Part shown: positions 7,104 through 49,972 of the stretch, in pieces
Numbering within the stretch: position 1 is the first letter of the stretch
How the letters are laid out: every line of letters starts with the position of its first letter
Assembly (NCBI GenBank): GCA_017861365.1
Contig: JAGFXR010000009.1
Location: forward strand, 1-64,000
Direction of reading: 5' to 3'
Source of the DNA: Oscillospiraceae bacterium
GTDB lineage: Bacteria > Bacillota > Clostridia > Oscillospirales > Oscillospiraceae
DNA: 64,000 nt
Notes under the pieces: model-generated
The model's input: the letters and a program-made list of their open reading frames with translations, nothing else
What the model was told of the DNA's origin: nothing
Database searches by the model: none
Made by a program: the position numbers and the translations under genes

Positions 7104-8486
7104 TCATTTTGAATGGAGCGCTGATTCTTGGGAACCATCAGGAATTCGCTTCAGCTGCTCCGGCGTAAGCCGTTTGAGCTCATGGCGGGGAAGAAGGGAC
7201 AGCAGTTCCCATCCAAGCCGCTCTGTTTGTTCGGAAGAACGGGGTTCATTGGAGTTCTGGGCAATGTAGCGCCTCTCAAAGGCATCGGCAAAATGGACGA
7301 ATGGAAGCTCCGTCTGGGTCAACGCGCCTTCGCCCAGCGTATGCATGAGATTCCTGCGCTCCCATCCGGTTGCATAGGCTTCAAGAAGCTGGCTTACGGC
7401 GGCGGCGCGATCCGCCTGAGTCCCGTCCAAAGGACTTTTCCATCCCGTGACGTGGGATCGGGATGCCAATGCGTCAACAGGCGGATCAATTCCGGCGCGG
7501 TGCAGTTCCTGAGACAAAACCAGTCTGCCGTCGGCGGCACAGCCCGCCAGCTCGCGGACAGGGCTGGACCTGTCATCCTCCGGCAGGGTCAGAAGAGAGA
7601 GCAAGGTAATCGAGCCGCGGCGGTCAGCGCGGCAGCCCGCGCGCTCACAGAGAGAGGCAAAGCCGGAGGAAATCCGAATGGGGAGCTCCCCTGCCACAGA
7701 ATTTGTTTCACCCAAGGCTTCGGCATAGCCCGCAAGATCGGTCAACAGCACCAGTACTTGCATATCCCGCTCAAATGCGAGGTACTCCGCCGCGGTGAGA
7801 GCCATTTGAAACGCTGTGGCCCGTGCTCCCGCGGGATCACCCGCCGGACTGAGAAAAGAAACCGTGCGTGCCGCGGCTCCTGCCCGGCGCAGCTCCTGAA
7901 GAAAAAAATCCGCTTCGTCAAAGGAGACTCCAACGGCCGCAAATACCACGGCAAAGCGTTCCCCGTCTCCATCCGCAAGGGTGGCCTGACGGAAAATTTG
8001 AGACACGAGTTGCCCGTGGGGAAGGCCGGGGCTGGAGCAAATGGTCAGCGTTTGACCCAAACACAGAGGAGTCAGCCCATCGACAGCGGACAGTCCCGTT
8101 CGGATAGGCCTGGCGGGATAATCGCGGGCAATGGGGTTTATGGAGATTGCGCCGATGTCACGGTACGCCTCCGGCAAAATGGCGGGGGCGCCATCAATGG
8201 GGTCACCTAATCCGTTAAAGACACGGCCAAGCATGTCCTCCGACACGGCCAGCCGCAGGGGATCACCCAAAAAGCGGATTTTACACCGGCTGGGATGGAT
8301 TCCGGTGGAGGATTCCAGCAGCTCCACCACGGCGGTTTCTCCGGTAATTTCCTGTATCCTGCAACGGCGAATACCGCCGTCGGGCAAAAGAAGCTCCCCC
8401 AGTTCCCCGCAGGTCACCCCGGTTACCCTGTCAACTGTTAAAAGTGTGCCGGAAAGCTGCCGTATGGTGCGGTATTCCTTAATCAC
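7104..8486 (-). CDS. atpB: V-type ATPase subunit B homologue with altered active site
   Basis: A 460-residue homologue of the non-catalytic B subunit of bacterial/archaeal V-type ATPases. Family landmarks: NGLGDPIDGAP, INPIARDYPARPIRTGLSAV, SSPGLPHGQL, FAVVFAAVGV, ALTAAEYLAFERDMQVLVLL, LPEDDRSSPV and FADAFERRYI. Two things are wrong for an enzyme. The normally invariant segment after AEALREIS, which should read like GRRGYPGYLYTDL, is shortened and unlike the family (GELPIRISSGFASL). The arginine finger in the usual LPSLSRLM is histidine here (ALASRSHV, His345 by my count; alignment over 38 residues without gaps). GTG start at 8486 overlaps the A-subunit stop (GTGA). The expected D subunit does not follow. 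The name atpB follows V-type nomenclature. Confidence 0.85.
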   Translation of the reverse strand: MIKEYRTIRQLSGTLLTVDRVTGVTCGELGELLLPDGGIRRCRIQEITGETAVVELLESSTGIHPSRCKIRFLGDPLRLAVSEDMLGRVFNGLGDPIDGAPAILPEAYRDIGAISINPIARDYPARPIRTGLSAVDGLTPLCLGQTLTICSSPGLPHGQLVSQIFRQATLADGDGERFAVVFAAVGVSFDEADFFLQELRRAGAAARTVSFLSPAGDPAGARATAFQMALTAAEYLAFERDMQVLVLLTDLAGYAEALGETNSVAGELPIRISSGFASLCERAGCRADRRGSITLLSLLTLPEDDRSSPVRELAGCAADGRLVLSQELHRAGIDPPVDALASRSHVTGWKSPLDGTQADRAAAVSQLLEAYATGWERRNLMHTLGEGALTQTELPFVHFADAFERRYIAQNSNEPRSSEQTERLGWELLSLLPRHELKRLTPEQLKRIPDGSQESALHSK

Positions 8487-10240
8487 TGACCGTCGCCCCC
8501 TTTCGCGGCAATGGCTTGAATCTGCCGCTTAAGCTCCTCGGAATAGCCTGCGTTCTGTTCAGCGGCGGCGTGCTTTGCGTATCCAATGTGCTCCCGCAGG
8601 CCGAGTTCCAGCAGCTCTGAAATGTCGGCGCCCTTTTTAACAGCGGCGCGGGCAAGTCGGTCATATTCCAGAATCAGCCGCAGCAGGGCGAGTTGGCGCT
8701 GTGAGGGTTCGCAGCTGTCAGGCTTTGCAAAGGCATTTTGATCGAAAAGCGTTTCCCGCAGCAGACAGGCGATTTCCACCGTCAGCCGATCCTCAGGGGA
8801 GAGAGACTTCCGTCCCAGCCGCCGGACAGTCCCCGACAGACGCTCCTCTTCCCGTAAAAAACGAAAGACCCGTTCCCGGTATGCTGGGAATTCATGTTCT
8901 ACATGGGAAGTGTACCAATCCGTCAAAGCGCTGAAATAGCGGGAGTAAGAGTGGCAGACCTGTACGGCGGGAAAGCGGCGCTCAAAGGCCAGAGTGGAAT
9001 CCAGAACCCAGAACGCGCCGACCAGCCGGGTCACCGCCTGGGCAACCGGATGGGAAAGGCTGCCGTCCGGCAGGGATAGCGCGCCCACCGCGGTCAGAGA
9101 GCCGATCCGCTCCCCTGCGCCGGAGCCGGAGGCAACACATCCGGCGCGGCCGAAAAACTGAGCCAGATGAAAGGTCAGACCGGCGGGATAGCCGCCCGTA
9201 CCCGACGGTTCGCCCAGACGCCCTGACAGCGCCCGAAGCGCCTCCGCCCAGTGGGAGACTGAATCGGCAATGACCGTCACATGGTGACCCATATCGCGGA
9301 AATATTCCCCGATGGAAATACCGGTCAGAACAGCCGCTTCCAAAACCGCGGGCAGTGCGGCGCTGCCTGCGATCACCACGGTGCGGCTCATGAGCGTTTC
9401 TCCCGTGCGGGGGTTTTGGAGCAGCGAAAGTTCCCTGAGAAGCTCGGCTGTCCCGCCGCTTCGCCCACCGCAGGCGATGTAGACCACCACATCGGCGTCC
9501 AGGGATGCCGCCAACTGCCGCAGAAGGATGGTTTTGCCCGTACCGCAGGGGCCGCACAGGGCGGCGGAGCCGCCTTTTGCGATGGGGAACAGCCCGTCAA
9601 TCACACGCTGGCCGGAACAGAGGGGGCTGTTGGGCGAAATTCTCCGTCGGCAGGGACGCTCCCGAACCGGCCACGTCTGGAGCATGGTCAGAGGCTCCGT
9701 GATGCCGTTCTCCAGACGAAGAATGCCCACGGTGTCGGTGACCGAATAAAGACCCGACTGGATGGATTCAACCACGCCGCTTTTTCCGTAGGGTACCATG
9801 ATGCTGTGGAGCACAGACCCGGATTCCTCCACGGTTCCAATTACGTCGCCTCCGGAGACGCGGTCACCCGCGGACGCAACTGCTGTAAAGTTCCAGGCTC
9901 GCTCTCTGCTGAGGGCGGGAAACCCTCCGTTTTCCGAAGGCAGACACTTGCCGCCCTCCATCCGTCCAAGAGGGCGCTGGAGTCCGTCAAACACACCGCC
10001 CAACATCCCCGGGGCAAGCTCCACGGAGAGCGGCGCGCCGGTCATTTCCACGTTTTCGCCGGGGCCGAGCCCAGTGGGATTATCATAGACCAGAATTGTG
10101 GCGGTATCATTTTTTACGGATAAAACCTCGCCTGCCAGACGCGGTTTTCCCACATACACCATATTGCCGATGCCGGCGTCGGAGAGCCCGCCCGCCGTCA
10201 CCAGCGGGCCGGAGACCGATTTGATGATTCCTGATGTCAA
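8483..10240 (-). CDS. atpA: V-type ATPase subunit A homologue lacking the catalytic glutamate
   Basis: A 585-residue homologue of the catalytic A subunit, full length. It has the N-terminal barrel (IIKSVSGPLVTA), TGAPLSVELAPGMLG, the bulge-domain segment IMVPYGKSGVVESIQ, QTWPVRERP, GQRVIDGLFPIAKGG, a P-loop GPCGTGKT (normally GPFGSGKT, residues 230-237), ADSVSHWAEALR and VGAFWVLDSTLAFERRFPAV. The motif normally CGERGNEMTD reads CGGRSGGTAE: the general-base glutamate is glycine 259. Translation starts at TTG 10240 behind GGGGAGG. The reading frame is clean, so this is either a recently dead gene or a protein kept for a non-hydrolytic role. The name atpA follows V-type nomenclature. Confidence 0.85.
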   Translation of the reverse strand: MTSGIIKSVSGPLVTAGGLSDAGIGNMVYVGKPRLAGEVLSVKNDTATILVYDNPTGLGPGENVEMTGAPLSVELAPGMLGGVFDGLQRPLGRMEGGKCLPSENGGFPALSRERAWNFTAVASAGDRVSGGDVIGTVEESGSVLHSIMVPYGKSGVVESIQSGLYSVTDTVGILRLENGITEPLTMLQTWPVRERPCRRRISPNSPLCSGQRVIDGLFPIAKGGSAALCGPCGTGKTILLRQLAASLDADVVVYIACGGRSGGTAELLRELSLLQNPRTGETLMSRTVVIAGSAALPAVLEAAVLTGISIGEYFRDMGHHVTVIADSVSHWAEALRALSGRLGEPSGTGGYPAGLTFHLAQFFGRAGCVASGSGAGERIGSLTAVGALSLPDGSLSHPVAQAVTRLVGAFWVLDSTLAFERRFPAVQVCHSYSRYFSALTDWYTSHVEHEFPAYRERVFRFLREEERLSGTVRRLGRKSLSPEDRLTVEIACLLRETLFDQNAFAKPDSCEPSQRQLALLRLILEYDRLARAAVKKGADISELLELGLREHIGYAKHAAAEQNAGYSEELKRQIQAIAAKGGDGQ

Positions 10241-42310: not shown

Positions 42311-42325
42311 AAGGAAGTAATGCAT

Positions 42326-43657
42326 ATGGAAACCATTCGTGATAATATTCGCGACGCGATAGAGAGCCTGCTGGTGGATGCCGTTGACAGCGCCGCAAAA
42401 AGTGAAGTCATTGACGAGCTCACCGATACCCTCTGCGCCAAGTATGAGGATTTGCTGGCTCAGGGCATGGACGAGGACTCGGCCTTTGATCAAGTGCTCT
42501 CGGGTATCGGCGATGTGGATGAGCTTGTGGCGTTCATCAACGCGTCCGCTGCCCAGGAGTCCCAGAGCCATTTTGATTTCGACGCAGCGTTTCAAGGCTT
42601 TGAACAGATTATGGGGCAGGTCAAAAGCGCCATTAACCAGGCGAAGGAGCCCATCAAAGACGCCTTCCACCAGGCCAAAGGCCCGATTAAGGATGCGGTT
42701 CATCAGGCAAAGGGTCCGATTAAAGACGCGGTGAATCAGGCGAAGGGACCTGTGATGGACGCGGTTCATCAGGCCAAAGGGCCGATTAAGGACGCCGCAA
42801 AGGAGTTTACGGAGAATATCCGCAAGGTCGGTCATGATTTCAATGCCGCGACCCGCTCCCACGGACAATACCGGTACGACCGGTCCATCTCCTCCGACGG
42901 CATCCGGGGCATTGACATCCATACCACCAGCGGAGATGTCACCGTCGGTTTCTCTGAGGATGACAATATTTATATTGTCGAGTGGACTAAAACGCCGCTG
43001 GAAGAGGATCATCAGGCGGAGGTCACCGTCCGCCCCGACGGCGTGTTGTGCGTCTCTCAGGGGCGCTCTGCCGCCAGTTCCATCTTCTTTGGCTGGGGGA
43101 TGCTCAATTCCGATCTGGAAATTTTTCTTCCCCGCAAAAACTGGAGCTTTGTCCGGGTGAATACCAGCAGCGGGGATATTGATTTCGGTCCGGGCATTTC
43201 TCTGGACAGCCTGAGCGTGCGCACCGGCAGCGGGGATCTCTCCTGCCAGGCGGCGGCCTGCGGAGCTCTTACCACCCATACCATCAGCGGCGACGTCAAC
43301 TGCTCCGGCGTGACGGGCACTGTGAGTGCCGAGAGCACCAGCGGCGATATTTTACTGGCGGGTACGCCGACGCAGGTTTCCGCCAAGATGATCAGCGGCG
43401 ATCTGAACCTGCGCTGTGGCTCCATGCCACAGAGCCTGGATGCTGCCACCGTTTCCGGAGACCTGCGCGTGGCCATTCCCGAAAATGACGGCTTCTCCAT
43501 CCGCTACCGCAAGGTCAGCGGCAGTCTCCAGAGTGATTTTAACCTGATGACCACGCTCAATTCTCATGAGGGCGAGGCGGTTTACCGCAGCGGCTCCCTC
43601 CGGCCGGCTTATACCTTCTCCACCACCAGCGGAGATATCCGCATCACCAGAGTATAA
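42326..43657 (+). CDS. HAAS-DUF4097 protein with five 11-residue repeats
   Basis: A 443-residue protein in three parts. The first 80 residues are a helical HAAS-type domain (AIESLLVDAVDSAAKSEVID, GMDEDSAFDQVLSGIGDVDE). Then come five near-identical 11-residue repeats (HQAKGPIKDAV). The last 270 residues are a DUF4097 beta-strand repeat domain in which TSGDV-type units recur about every 20 residues (HTTSGDVTVG, NTSSGDIDFG, TGSGDLSCQ, TISGDVNCS, STSGDILLA, TVSGDLRVA, TTSGDIRI). No signal peptide or membrane helix is visible, so it is probably cytosolic or loosely bound. ATG 42326 fits the GGAAG spacing better than ATG 42320. PadR is the likely controller. Confidence 0.75.
   Translation: METIRDNIRDAIESLLVDAVDSAAKSEVIDELTDTLCAKYEDLLAQGMDEDSAFDQVLSGIGDVDELVAFINASAAQESQSHFDFDAAFQGFEQIMGQVKSAINQAKEPIKDAFHQAKGPIKDAVHQAKGPIKDAVNQAKGPVMDAVHQAKGPIKDAAKEFTENIRKVGHDFNAATRSHGQYRYDRSISSDGIRGIDIHTTSGDVTVGFSEDDNIYIVEWTKTPLEEDHQAEVTVRPDGVLCVSQGRSAASSIFFGWGMLNSDLEIFLPRKNWSFVRVNTSSGDIDFGPGISLDSLSVRTGSGDLSCQAAACGALTTHTISGDVNCSGVTGTVSAESTSGDILLAGTPTQVSAKMISGDLNLRCGSMPQSLDAATVSGDLRVAIPENDGFSIRYRKVSGSLQSDFNLMTTLNSHEGEAVYRSGSLRPAYTFSTTSGDIRITRV
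42635..42799 (+). repeat. Five tandem 33-bp in-frame repeats
   Basis: Five copies of a 33-base unit encoding NQAKEPIKDAF, HQAKGPIKDAV, HQAKGPIKDAV, NQAKGPVMDAV and HQAKGPIKDAA. The units differ at wobble positions as well as in a few residues, so they are under coding constraint. An 11-residue period fits an amphipathic helix or LEA-like rod. Confidence 0.9.
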
Positions 43658-47258: not shown

Positions 47259-49178
47259 TCAGTACATATCCGCCATCCTGCCGATCAGCACAACCGGGAT
47301 AAGCCAGCACACCATAAAAATCAGCAGGTTCATGGGAGACAGCGCGGAGTATGCCTCCATAAAGGTGAGGTAGTAGGACATCAGCACCCCCACCACAGAG
47401 CCCGCGATGGACAGCCAGGTTCCCAGAACAGCGGCGCTGCGCAGCCGTTTGGCGGCAACCACCGCCTCGGCGAAGGAATCCAGTCCCTCCCGGTAGAGCA
47501 CGGCGGTAATAGCCGGGTCGTGGGGTACGCCGGGATCGGACAGTGCCACACGGTGGGGCACGGCGGGAAAGATCATCTTATCGGTGGGGAGCTTAAATTT
47601 GTCCCGTAAAAATTTCATCGAAATGCCGAAATCTCGGGTGATCAGGATGGGCGTGATGCGATGCTTCAGCAGTGTCCGAACCGCCCGGAGAGACTGGGTG
47701 CTCATCTGATAGTCCAGGGTAAAGATGCCCGCCAGCCGCCCGTCGATGGCGCAGAACAGTTTGCCGGTATCATCAATCCCCACCGGAAGGGAAACTTCTG
47801 TGCGCCGCATAAAAGCTCCGGTGCCGATGGAGGTCTCCACCCCGGCCAGAATGGCGGTAATGCCTCCCTCCTGATGAATCAGCTCGTCAATCCAGTAGTA
47901 GTCCAGATCCAGCTGACGCATGGCGGTATGAAAGACCCGTGCCAGGCCAAGACCGCCCTCCCGCACCAGCGTGGCTGTGGAGGCCATCACCTCCCGCTCG
48001 CTGAAGGAGTTGAACAGTTGGAAGTCCACGATATGGACGGCTTTCAAGGGAAACAAGTCCCGGTCGGTGATCAGAAGATTCCGCCCCGTGGTGCAGATGC
48101 CCGCCCAGCCGCACAAGGCGGTTCCCGATTTGGAGAGTCGGGTGGCCAGCCGGTCAAATGGCGCGGCATAGGCGATGGCGGCGGAAAAGGAGGCCGCCGC
48201 CGTCAGGGTGGCGGACAGGCACCACAGCAGCAGCTCAGGGCGGTCCTGCCCCAAGGAGGCCAGGCTGGAGAACAGCACGCAAGCGATCGTCAGCAGCGGA
48301 ACCGCAATCCGCAGGATCCGCTGGGTACCGTCCAGCCCCTGAATCTGGCTGCCGTAGCCGAGGCCGCTGCCCATCCAGCGGGCGTAGGCATCCTGCCCGC
48401 TCCAGCTGTTTTCGTCCAAGGACACATAATCGGGATTGCGCACCGTGACCGCCGCCCGGCAGGCGGTGCGCCGTCCCCGTTTCTTTAAATATTCACCCCA
48501 CAAAAGCGCGGCCAGGGCGAACAGATTGACCGCGCAGAAGGGCAGTCCTTGCCCCCGGTCTCCCATCACAGGCATGGTCAGCGCGTCCGCGGCCGAGGCA
48601 GCACAGGCGAGGGTCATGACAAATCCCGCGCCGAGAGTGACGATGCCTTTGAGCAATACGTCCCCCGCGAGAAGCATCCCCGCCGCCAGCAAGCCACCAC
48701 ACACCCAGACCTCCAGCCGCCACTGCGCCTGCGTAAGGCTGGGCATAGGCAGAGGAAGACTTGCCGCCAATACCGGATACAGGGTGATACAGGCCAGAAT
48801 CAGGATGAAGTATATGCGCAGCCGCAGGAAGCTCAGCCCCGCGCCATATTTTTTGGCCAGCTGGAGAGGGGGAATGTCGGGAGCGTCCTCCTCAATATGT
48901 TTGCGGCGGCTCGGATTTTGGACAGACTCCTCTTCTTCGTCGGTGTTGGGCAGCAGAGTCGATTCGGGAGATTCCGACGTATCCTCCTCCTCACCCGCGT
49001 ATAAATGGCGGCTGTACTGCTCAACTCGCTGGCGAAGCTCGTCCACGATCTCGTCCCCAAGCTCACCGGGAAAGGGGATGATGTTTTCCGGCAGCTTGTC
49101 CGGCTCCGTCTCCGGCGGACTCCCGGGTGGGGAAGTATCCTCTGGGGACGGTGTTTTTTTCCTCCAGAACAGGATCAT
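47259..49178 (-). CDS. P-type-ATPase-like membrane protein without catalytic motifs
   Basis: A 639-residue protein. The first 110 residues are an acidic, disordered tail (EEEDTSESPE, NTDEEEES). Then come five hydrophobic segments (about residues 121-140, 155-200, 212-230, 289-308, 315-340), a large cytosolic region, and two C-terminal helices (about 583-605, 617-633). The order and spacing match a P1-type ATPase, and GKLFCAIDGRLAGIFTLDYQ with RAVRTLLKHRITPILITRDF corresponds to the family's GRLAGxxxLxD...LxxxGIxxxxLTGD. But where DKTGTLT belongs there is TDRDLFP (371-377), LTGD is ITRD, and GDGINDxP is gone. Probably not a pump; perhaps a sensor or scaffold. Its ATG overlaps the rlmB stop. 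Confidence 0.55.
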   Translation of the reverse strand: MILFWRKKTPSPEDTSPPGSPPETEPDKLPENIIPFPGELGDEIVDELRQRVEQYSRHLYAGEEEDTSESPESTLLPNTDEEEESVQNPSRRKHIEEDAPDIPPLQLAKKYGAGLSFLRLRIYFILILACITLYPVLAASLPLPMPSLTQAQWRLEVWVCGGLLAAGMLLAGDVLLKGIVTLGAGFVMTLACAASAADALTMPVMGDRGQGLPFCAVNLFALAALLWGEYLKKRGRRTACRAAVTVRNPDYVSLDENSWSGQDAYARWMGSGLGYGSQIQGLDGTQRILRIAVPLLTIACVLFSSLASLGQDRPELLLWCLSATLTAAASFSAAIAYAAPFDRLATRLSKSGTALCGWAGICTTGRNLLITDRDLFPLKAVHIVDFQLFNSFSEREVMASTATLVREGGLGLARVFHTAMRQLDLDYYWIDELIHQEGGITAILAGVETSIGTGAFMRRTEVSLPVGIDDTGKLFCAIDGRLAGIFTLDYQMSTQSLRAVRTLLKHRITPILITRDFGISMKFLRDKFKLPTDKMIFPAVPHRVALSDPGVPHDPAITAVLYREGLDSFAEAVVAAKRLRSAAVLGTWLSIAGSVVGVLMSYYLTFMEAYSALSPMNLLIFMVCWLIPVVLIGRMADMY

Positions 49179-49972
49179 ATTGCTTGCGTGACCTGCCGCT
49201 GGCGAACGGCCTCATAGAGGAGAACCGCCGCCGCCGCGCTGGCGTTTAACGAGTTGACCTTGCCCTTCATGGGGATGGAGAGGGTTACGTCGCAGGTTTC
49301 CGCCACCAGCCGTCCCATGCCGGATCCTTCCGAGCCGATGACAATGGCCGCCGCGCCCTTCAGGTCGGCCTGATAGAGGGGAGTCTTCCCGTCCGCCTCC
49401 GCGCCGAAGACCCAGAGCCCCGCCTCTTTCAGCTCCTTGAGTAGCGCGGTCAGATTAGCAACCCGGGCAACGGGTATATGAGCCACGGCGCCGGCTGAGG
49501 TTTTCGCCACAATGGCGGTGAGTCCCGCGCTGCGCCGCTTGGGAATAATCACGCCGTGGGCGCCGGCGCATTCCGCCGTGCGGATAATGGCCCCCAGGTT
49601 ATGGGGATCGGAAATCTCGTCGCACACCACCACAAGGGGCTGTTCGCCCCGGTCTCTGGCGGACTGGAGAATGTCCTCCACGGTGGCGTACTCCCGCACG
49701 GCGGCAATGGCGATGACGCCCTGATGGGAGTGGGTTACACTCATATTGTCCAGCTTTCTTCGGTCTGTCTCCACGACCACCACACCGTTTGAACGGGCGG
49801 AGGAGGCAATATGGCCGAGAGACGCGTCGGTTTCCCCCTTGGCGAGATAAATCTTATCAATGGCGGTCCCTGCCCGCAGCGCCTCGATCACCGCATTGCG
49901 CCCCTCGATGATACCGTCGTTGACTGCTTCCTCCAGGGAGTTTGGCTGATGACCGCTTCGTTTTTTGTTCAT
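49175..49972 (-). CDS. rlmB: 23S rRNA (guanosine-2'-O-)-methyltransferase, SpoU family
   Basis: A 265-residue SPOUT methyltransferase of the TrmH/RlmB type. N-terminal substrate part: GIIEGRNAVIEALRAG. The knotted SAM domain shows VVCDEISDPHNLGAIIRTAE (motif 1, with NLGAIIRTA), AIVIGSEGSGMGRLV (motif 2) and VNSLNASAAAAVLLYEA (motif 3). Length and the YacO-like layout fit RlmB, which methylates G2251; exact target is inferred from the family. First gene of the leftward operon. Confidence 0.85.
   Translation of the reverse strand: MNKKRSGHQPNSLEEAVNDGIIEGRNAVIEALRAGTAIDKIYLAKGETDASLGHIASSARSNGVVVVETDRRKLDNMSVTHSHQGVIAIAAVREYATVEDILQSARDRGEQPLVVVCDEISDPHNLGAIIRTAECAGAHGVIIPKRRSAGLTAIVAKTSAGAVAHIPVARVANLTALLKELKEAGLWVFGAEADGKTPLYQADLKGAAAIVIGSEGSGMGRLVAETCDVTLSIPMKGKVNSLNASAAAAVLLYEAVRQRQVTQAI

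Follow-up and report, generated by a model that had tools for sequence, protein, structure and literature searches.

P-type ATPases of the P1B class, exemplified by the copper pump CopA (structures 3rfu and 4bbj), combine an eight-helix membrane layout with P and N domains, an actuator (A) domain and HMA domains, and carry the motifs DKTGT, TGE, GDGxND, HP and CPC. KdpB, a P1A ATPase of the same superfamily, is catalytically active and works within a multi-protein complex. In the available text of a review (PMC10654040), the diversity of P-type ATPases in prokaryotes is presented as still undescribed and no pseudoenzyme is mentioned. Likewise, no report of a conserved pseudo- or inactive P-type ATPase was found in the open-access PMC literature.

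The window, i.e. the whole stretch of 64,000 nucleotides analysed here (Oscillospiraceae bacterium, contig JAGFXR010000009.1, positions 1 to 64,000), encodes a pump-like protein of 639 aa whose ATG overlaps the stop codon of rlmB as ATGA (49175-49178). Like CopA, this protein displays the eight-helix layout, the P and N domain folds and a full-length profile match, but it is devoid of the five motifs, its A domain is only a hairpin, and a long acidic N-terminal tail takes the place of the HMA domains. Its features, and the neighbouring gene, are as follows:

47259-49178, minus strand: pseudo-P1B-ATPase, 639 aa (ORF, profile matches, model, superposition)
48843-49178, minus strand: acidic N-terminal tail, residues 1-112, modelled mostly with low confidence, with one predicted helix at 42-59 (model, composition)
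48447-48842, minus strand: equivalents of helices MA, MB, M1 and M2, residues 113-244 (model helices and alignment to CopA; helix names by analogy)
48330-48446, minus strand: what is left of the actuator domain, residues 245-283, forming a beta hairpin (model strands 250-259 and 262-269)
48150-48329, minus strand: equivalents of M3-M4, residues 284-343, without CPC (model, ORF motif count, profile comparison)
48048-48065, minus strand: DRDLFP, residues 372-377, at the DKTGT position (homologue alignment)
47706-48044, minus strand: N-domain-like part, residues 379-491, with conserved G439 and G452 and without the HP motif (structure match to 2voy_J, alignment)
47628-47642, minus strand: ITRDF, residues 513-517, at the TGD position (alignment; D516 in 45 of 48 homologues)
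47274-47483, minus strand: C-terminal membrane helices M5-M6, residues 566-635, the preceding GDGxND segment being missing (model, profile comparison)
49175-49972, minus strand: rlmB (SpoU-family rRNA methylase), conserved neighbour (neighbour search, Pfam scan, stop/start overlap)

Descent from copper pumps and loss of the catalytic motifs

Searched singly against Pfam, NCBIfam and PDB sequences, the window protein gives nothing significant. Its affiliation was obtained with a profile of 48 homologue rows, built from 53 loci of which L034, L039, L045, L046 and L047 were left out as short. In a search of this profile against PDB (hmmsearch), the best match is CopA 3rfu (E 2.4e-29) and copper or heavy-metal ATPases occupy the top 16 rows. 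Aligned by hhalign with two sets of reference pumps, sorted by CPC and by sequence, the same profile matches 11 canonical P1B pumps of the same order at 99.9% (E 6.1e-33, 535 columns), versus 27.3% (E 6.6e-4) for 8 pumps that we take to be P2-type; the family is thus closer to P1B than to P2 pumps. The AlphaFold model of the window protein (mean pLDDT 88.8, pTM 0.82) has 4bbj as its best Foldseek match (E 3.0e-15, TM 0.47). Its superposition on 3rfu by VIA-align covers 471 residues (Z 22.9) with an rmsd of 9.3 Å, a large value taken to reflect differing domain positions, and the N domain alone fits that of CopA (2voy_J) at 2.2 Å over 108 residues (Z 14.8). KdpB provides weaker structural matches than CopA (Z about 12-13).

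The full-length profile match and the fold make the protein a member of the P-type superfamily by descent. The initial annotation, made from the letters alone, had recognised a P1-type pump in the layout of the membrane segments and in the actuator/P-domain spacing, and profile, profile-profile and structure comparisons all agree with a P1B membrane and P/N layout; the lack of a significant Pfam match for the single sequence spoke against any P-type relationship, but this was overturned by the profile and structure searches. The case for a P1B-derived pseudoenzyme is strong: the protein has P-type ancestry but, to the extent that its sequence can tell, does not work as a P-type ATPase.

The N-terminal tail comprises 112 residues, of which 27 are D/E and 12 K/R, in agreement with the acidic tail of about 110 residues noticed before the membrane part at the outset. 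Most of the A domain falls within a gap of the profile comparison, and the window protein has no TGE. In the P domain, TDRDLFP (residues 371-377) replaces DKTGTLT. The profile alignment puts the catalytic Asp at residue 371, where 23 of the 48 homologues have T, 4 have D and 21 have another residue, a slip of one residue being possible in the strand around 371/372. The adjacent D372 is D in 45 of these homologues, D374 in 41, and D516, within the ITRD that occupies the TGD position, is kept in 45; only 23 have T or S at residue 514, which corresponds to motif II. Over the 48 rows, G452 is invariant and D372, F376, G439, Y490 and D516 are conserved in at least 90%.

The losses extend to the whole family. 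Among 201 homologous ORFs scoring at least 150 bits, many of them partial at locus ends and some representing the same gene cut differently, none has DKTGT at the catalytic place, none has GDGxND (the corresponding segment is missing in the profile alignment) and none has CPC, whose aligned residues in the window protein (329-331) are A-S-F. The string DKTG occurs in two of these ORFs, both times within the variable tail, and the letters TGE occur anywhere in the sequence in 18. The residues of the window protein aligned with the HP motif of the N domain (410-411) are L-G. Globally, the initial reading of the replaced DKTGTLT and LTGD and of the absent GDGINDxP was accurate, and the altered motifs prove to be conserved among orthologues, none of which has retained an intact DKTGT. 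Its conclusion that there is no phosphorylation site holds for the canonical motif and has to be qualified for the place itself, where a conserved acidic DxD lies at or beside the position.

Distribution and gene neighbourhood

A search with the single sequence found homologues in 53 of 60 relatives. Three of the seven that were missed (G041, G044 and G054) have the gene according to a profile search, and the other four, 55-80% complete, give matches only at the level of ordinary pumps. The order, which we take to be Oscillospirales from GTDB taxonomy and from the names of carriers (including Flavonifractor, Pseudoflavonifractor, Intestinimonas and other Oscillospiraceae), has the gene in 142 of 147 genomes at better than 1e-35, with one match each except in G295, where two pieces of the gene lie on two contigs. 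In the five genomes devoid of it, a renewed search gave only pump-level matches of at most 107 bits. In a sample of the class, all 8 genomes of the order reach at least 265 bits and, among the matches listed, none of the 188 other genomes exceeds 106 bits; from their score and coverage, these matches outside the order are taken to be ordinary pumps.

The pseudo-pump is a single-copy core gene of the order, maintained rather than decaying. The idea of a decaying, functionless gene could draw on the divergence of the sequences within the order (mean column identity 21% over 48 rows) and on G057, in which an in-frame TGA splits the gene (L046) into frames of 376 and 434 codons, but it is hardly credible because the gene is found once per genome in nearly the entire order and has invariant positions. 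A core gene that has abandoned the catalytic cycle throughout a clade and retained the fold of membrane part and headpiece would be evidence that P-type pumps can be put to new use as scaffolds. Apparent in-frame stops were also examined in G276, G288, G311, G342 and G360 and proved to be terminal stop codons; one TAA is listed for G496.

The neighbourhood was compared in 117 loci, 37 from relatives and 80 from the named group, which correspond to 114 distinct genes (L055 and L292, L056 and L261, L057 and L310 are the same genes, two of these repeats being among the 103 loci that follow). Of the 103 loci with at least 700 bases upstream, 101 have rlmB on that side and in the same orientation. 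By contrast with this conserved neighbour, dtd (same strand) and hemZ are downstream in none of the 109 loci with at least 700 bases on that side, neither dtd nor an MBL hydrolase gene is found anywhere near in the 117 loci, and hemZ is near in a single one, upstream (L037). The genes dtd, MBL and hemZ, which had been assigned with rlmB to one operon, are therefore local, and of that operon only the rlmB link stands. The role in stress or translation quality that had been drawn from these genes is not supported, although the regulatory or scaffold function put forward with it agrees with the best reading of the protein, a non-catalytic role.

Two other genes recur nearby. An ftsH-like match is found in 60 of the 117 loci, mostly upstream and divergent. 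Clustering of the genes of 38 loci (37 from relatives plus the window) gives a cluster present in 16 loci (L066:4714-7401 and 15 others), 15 of which have it downstream in the same orientation. Its longest member is an EF-G-like GTPase, and the window lacks it. A link to translation through rlmB and the EF-G-like gene is possible.

A tail peptide common to the pseudo-pump and LspA

The tails of the homologues are long, acidic and not alignable, and most hold, near the N-terminus, a SLEDILAEF-like peptide that is absent from the tail of the window protein. When a back-translated pattern was searched in the 60 relatives, six genomes matched, three in the pseudo-pump and three where the signal peptidase II protein (LspA) ends at its C-terminus. 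With the strict pattern [ST]LE[DES]ILAE[FY], 150 family genomes yielded 68 matches, spread over 66 of them, versus none for the reversed control: 61 lie in the pseudo-pump, seven in LspA and none elsewhere. Of these matches 55 were read directly, and the other 13 were assigned from their coordinates within loci that had been read before. The 61 include six fragments of the tail at contig ends, with weak profile scores (16.9-37.1 bits) and each adjoining rlmB, and one of the seven (L150, G423) falls within the stretch of the LspA tail but not in its reading frame, as assembled. A looser pattern searched in the order matched 9 of 147 genomes, 10 times in all, and its reversed control matched twice. 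Five of the 10 matches belong to the pseudo-pump and one to LspA; the other four, of which two fall in a single protein family, are taken for chance.

LspA is a membrane protein unrelated to the pseudo-pump. In part of the Oscillospiraceae, this peptide caps the disordered C-terminal tail of LspA; in both proteins it stands at the end of a long tail, C-terminal in LspA but N-terminal in the pseudo-pump. Given the way in which P1B pumps and LspA are known to be oriented in the membrane, the two peptides are expected on its cytosolic side. Nothing relevant to LspA tails was found in the open-access PMC literature. The C-terminal tail of SSB and the C-terminal peptide of FtsZ are alike in their working only, i.e. 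a disordered linker ending in a docking peptide; their peptides differ in sequence, and no homology is claimed.

Tail sets fetched independently of the motif show how frequent it is. A relaxed motif is present in 32 of 49 closed pump tails from relatives, 18 of 31 from the order and 73 of 74 from the named group (the first two sets share genomes, and the motif-fetched loci L134-L177 and L208-L232 were left out), versus 0.03, 0.04 and 0.01 in the respective shuffled tails. Its absence from 17 of the 49 and 13 of the 31, including the window's own tail, speaks against a docking peptide. Among 191 pump tails, 27 are devoid of it, several of these holding near variants. For LspA, 83 loci were chosen regardless of the motif, with long frames favoured (30 best-scoring, 15 mostly long-frame and 38 of at least 250 aa among those listed; L190 and L246 are the same gene, as are L198 and L241). 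The motif is found in 27 of the 39 tails of at least 60 aa, 26 times within 5 residues of the C-terminus and once 16 residues away, versus none of the 44 short tails and 0.005 of shuffled ones. Among the long tails that lack it, one belongs to an LspA-RluD fusion (L239), one has a shifted frame (L364) and others hold near variants, for instance NVDDLLREY (L240).

Several other observations concern these tails and loci. In L239 (G006), LspA is fused in frame to a pseudouridine synthase, presumably of RluD type, through a linker devoid of the motif, and L240 (G008) carries on the same locus as lspA a coding sequence that we take to be DivIVA-like. The disordered LspA tails of L135, L137, L138, L225, L234 and L236 share a further, DPFAEWE-like element, which precedes their terminal motif. 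In one group of pseudo-pump tails, with L009, L010, L016, L019, L022 and L026 among them, conservation extends about 45 residues past the motif (AEYKSEAFI..E.KLS.EEL...A..I..E), a stretch that is perhaps a small helical module.

The two proteins do not always carry the peptide together. In a non-random set of 51 paired genomes, the looser motif is found in both proteins in 20, in the pump only in 23, in LspA only in 4 and in neither in 3, one genome being set aside. Among the LspA-only genomes, the pump has near variants in G416, G484 and G488, and its sequence is not readable there in G516. In thirty genomes it was LspA that prompted a search for the pump, and no pseudo-pump was detected in three of them: G457 (listed as 100% complete, 80 contigs) and G514 (86% complete), whose LspA bears the motif, and G413, whose LspA does not. 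In the AlphaFold model of a motif-bearing member, the motif is a low-confidence helix (block mean 58); docking onto the protein's own core was not seen in this single-chain model, which cannot test partners.

Possible functions

The best explanation is that the protein is a membrane scaffold or receptor derived from a dead P1B pump, with a tail docking peptide shared with LspA and a common partner; we give it somewhat less than an even chance. Within it, the scaffold role is held with moderate confidence, and the connection with lipoproteins is a lead. In an ancestor of the order, a copper-type P1B-ATPase lost ATP-driven transport along with TGE, DKTGT, HP, GDGxND and CPC; it kept its membrane bundle and P/N-like headpiece and became, linked to rlmB, a core gene present once per genome. 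The descent, the missing motifs, the distribution and the rlmB linkage are shown by the results above, and the scaffold or receptor role is inferred. The [ST]LE[DES]ILAE[FY] peptide, borne in most members by the long disordered tail on the cytosolic side, would form a short amphipathic helix docking on a partner. As LspA bears the same peptide on its tail, this partner probably brings the pseudo-pump and LspA to one place, and the motif-bearing LspA proteins of G457 and G514, if these genomes really lack a pseudo-pump, favour a third partner over direct binding between the two. Weighing against this explanation are the pump tails without the motif, the 44 short tails among the 83 LspA loci, G457 and G514 with no pseudo-pump detected, the four matches in other proteins and two in the reversed control for the looser pattern, the low-confidence, undocked motif of the model, and the five order genomes devoid of the gene. 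A more specific version, in which the pseudo-P1B-ATPase would nucleate an Oscillospirales membrane assembly and the docking peptide would recruit LspA to it in Oscillospiraceae, is rather doubtful; if true, it would turn the pseudo-pump into an organiser of lipoprotein maturation. The peptide common to both proteins is a concrete, testable lead to the partner of the pseudo-pump in this group of gut bacteria.

Other functions have to be weighed against this scaffold. The conserved D372, D374 and D516 at the pseudo-active site, together with G439 and G452 in the N-like domain, would fit a sensor whose remodelled P/N headpiece still binds a metal, a nucleotide or a phosphate compound and transmits this through a change of conformation; the tail peptide would then be of secondary importance. 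The window member, which keeps the core yet has no tail motif, fits it too. The disappearance of HP, the P-type nucleotide signature, and of the Mg-binding aspartate of GDGxND makes such a sensor unlikely as the main function, and the three aspartates may as well bind a metal or ligand, in the manner of a sensor, within the scaffold. Alternatively, the protein could still act, slowly or in an unusual way, as an enzyme or transporter. Its conserved DxD is similar to HAD motif I, and D372 would be a shifted nucleophile if the register, uncertain by one residue in this strand, has slipped. Such an activity is very improbable for a family in which no more than 4 of 48 rows have D in column 371, fewer than half have T or S at position 514, motif IV is deleted and the A domain is a hairpin.

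Two further readings start from the surroundings of the gene or of the peptide. A membrane protein associated with ribosomes or with translation would account for the near-constant rlmB and for the EF-G-like gene downstream in 15 of 38 loci; it is quite unlikely, since gene neighbours make a weak argument, dtd, MBL and hemZ show no linkage and the shared tail peptide points to LspA. Slightly less probable still is that the peptide, instead of serving a joint assembly, marks long-tailed membrane proteins for degradation or quality control, for instance by an AAA+ protease such as FtsH. Both carriers are indeed membrane proteins with long tails that end or begin near the peptide, and an ftsH-like match is close to about half of the loci, but a general tag would be expected on more than the two proteins that the strict pattern finds in 150 genomes.

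In the window species, the scaffold reading takes a reduced form: the pump tail has no peptide and the tail of LspA is only 12-13 residues long, so that only the core function can remain there.

The initial annotation had also counted this protein as the second pump-like one in the window to lose catalysis; a Pfam scan of 20 other ORFs of the window finds no P-type relative, and this count is not confirmed. The pump-like ORFs elsewhere in the window encode V-type ATPase subunits, presumably A (8483-10240) and B (7104-8486) (minus strand), which are possibly the other protein that was meant, the V-type B subunit being normally non-catalytic. Another ORF of the window (42320-43657) encodes a peptide repeated in tandem, QAKGPIKDAVH-like, with about 11 residues per unit.
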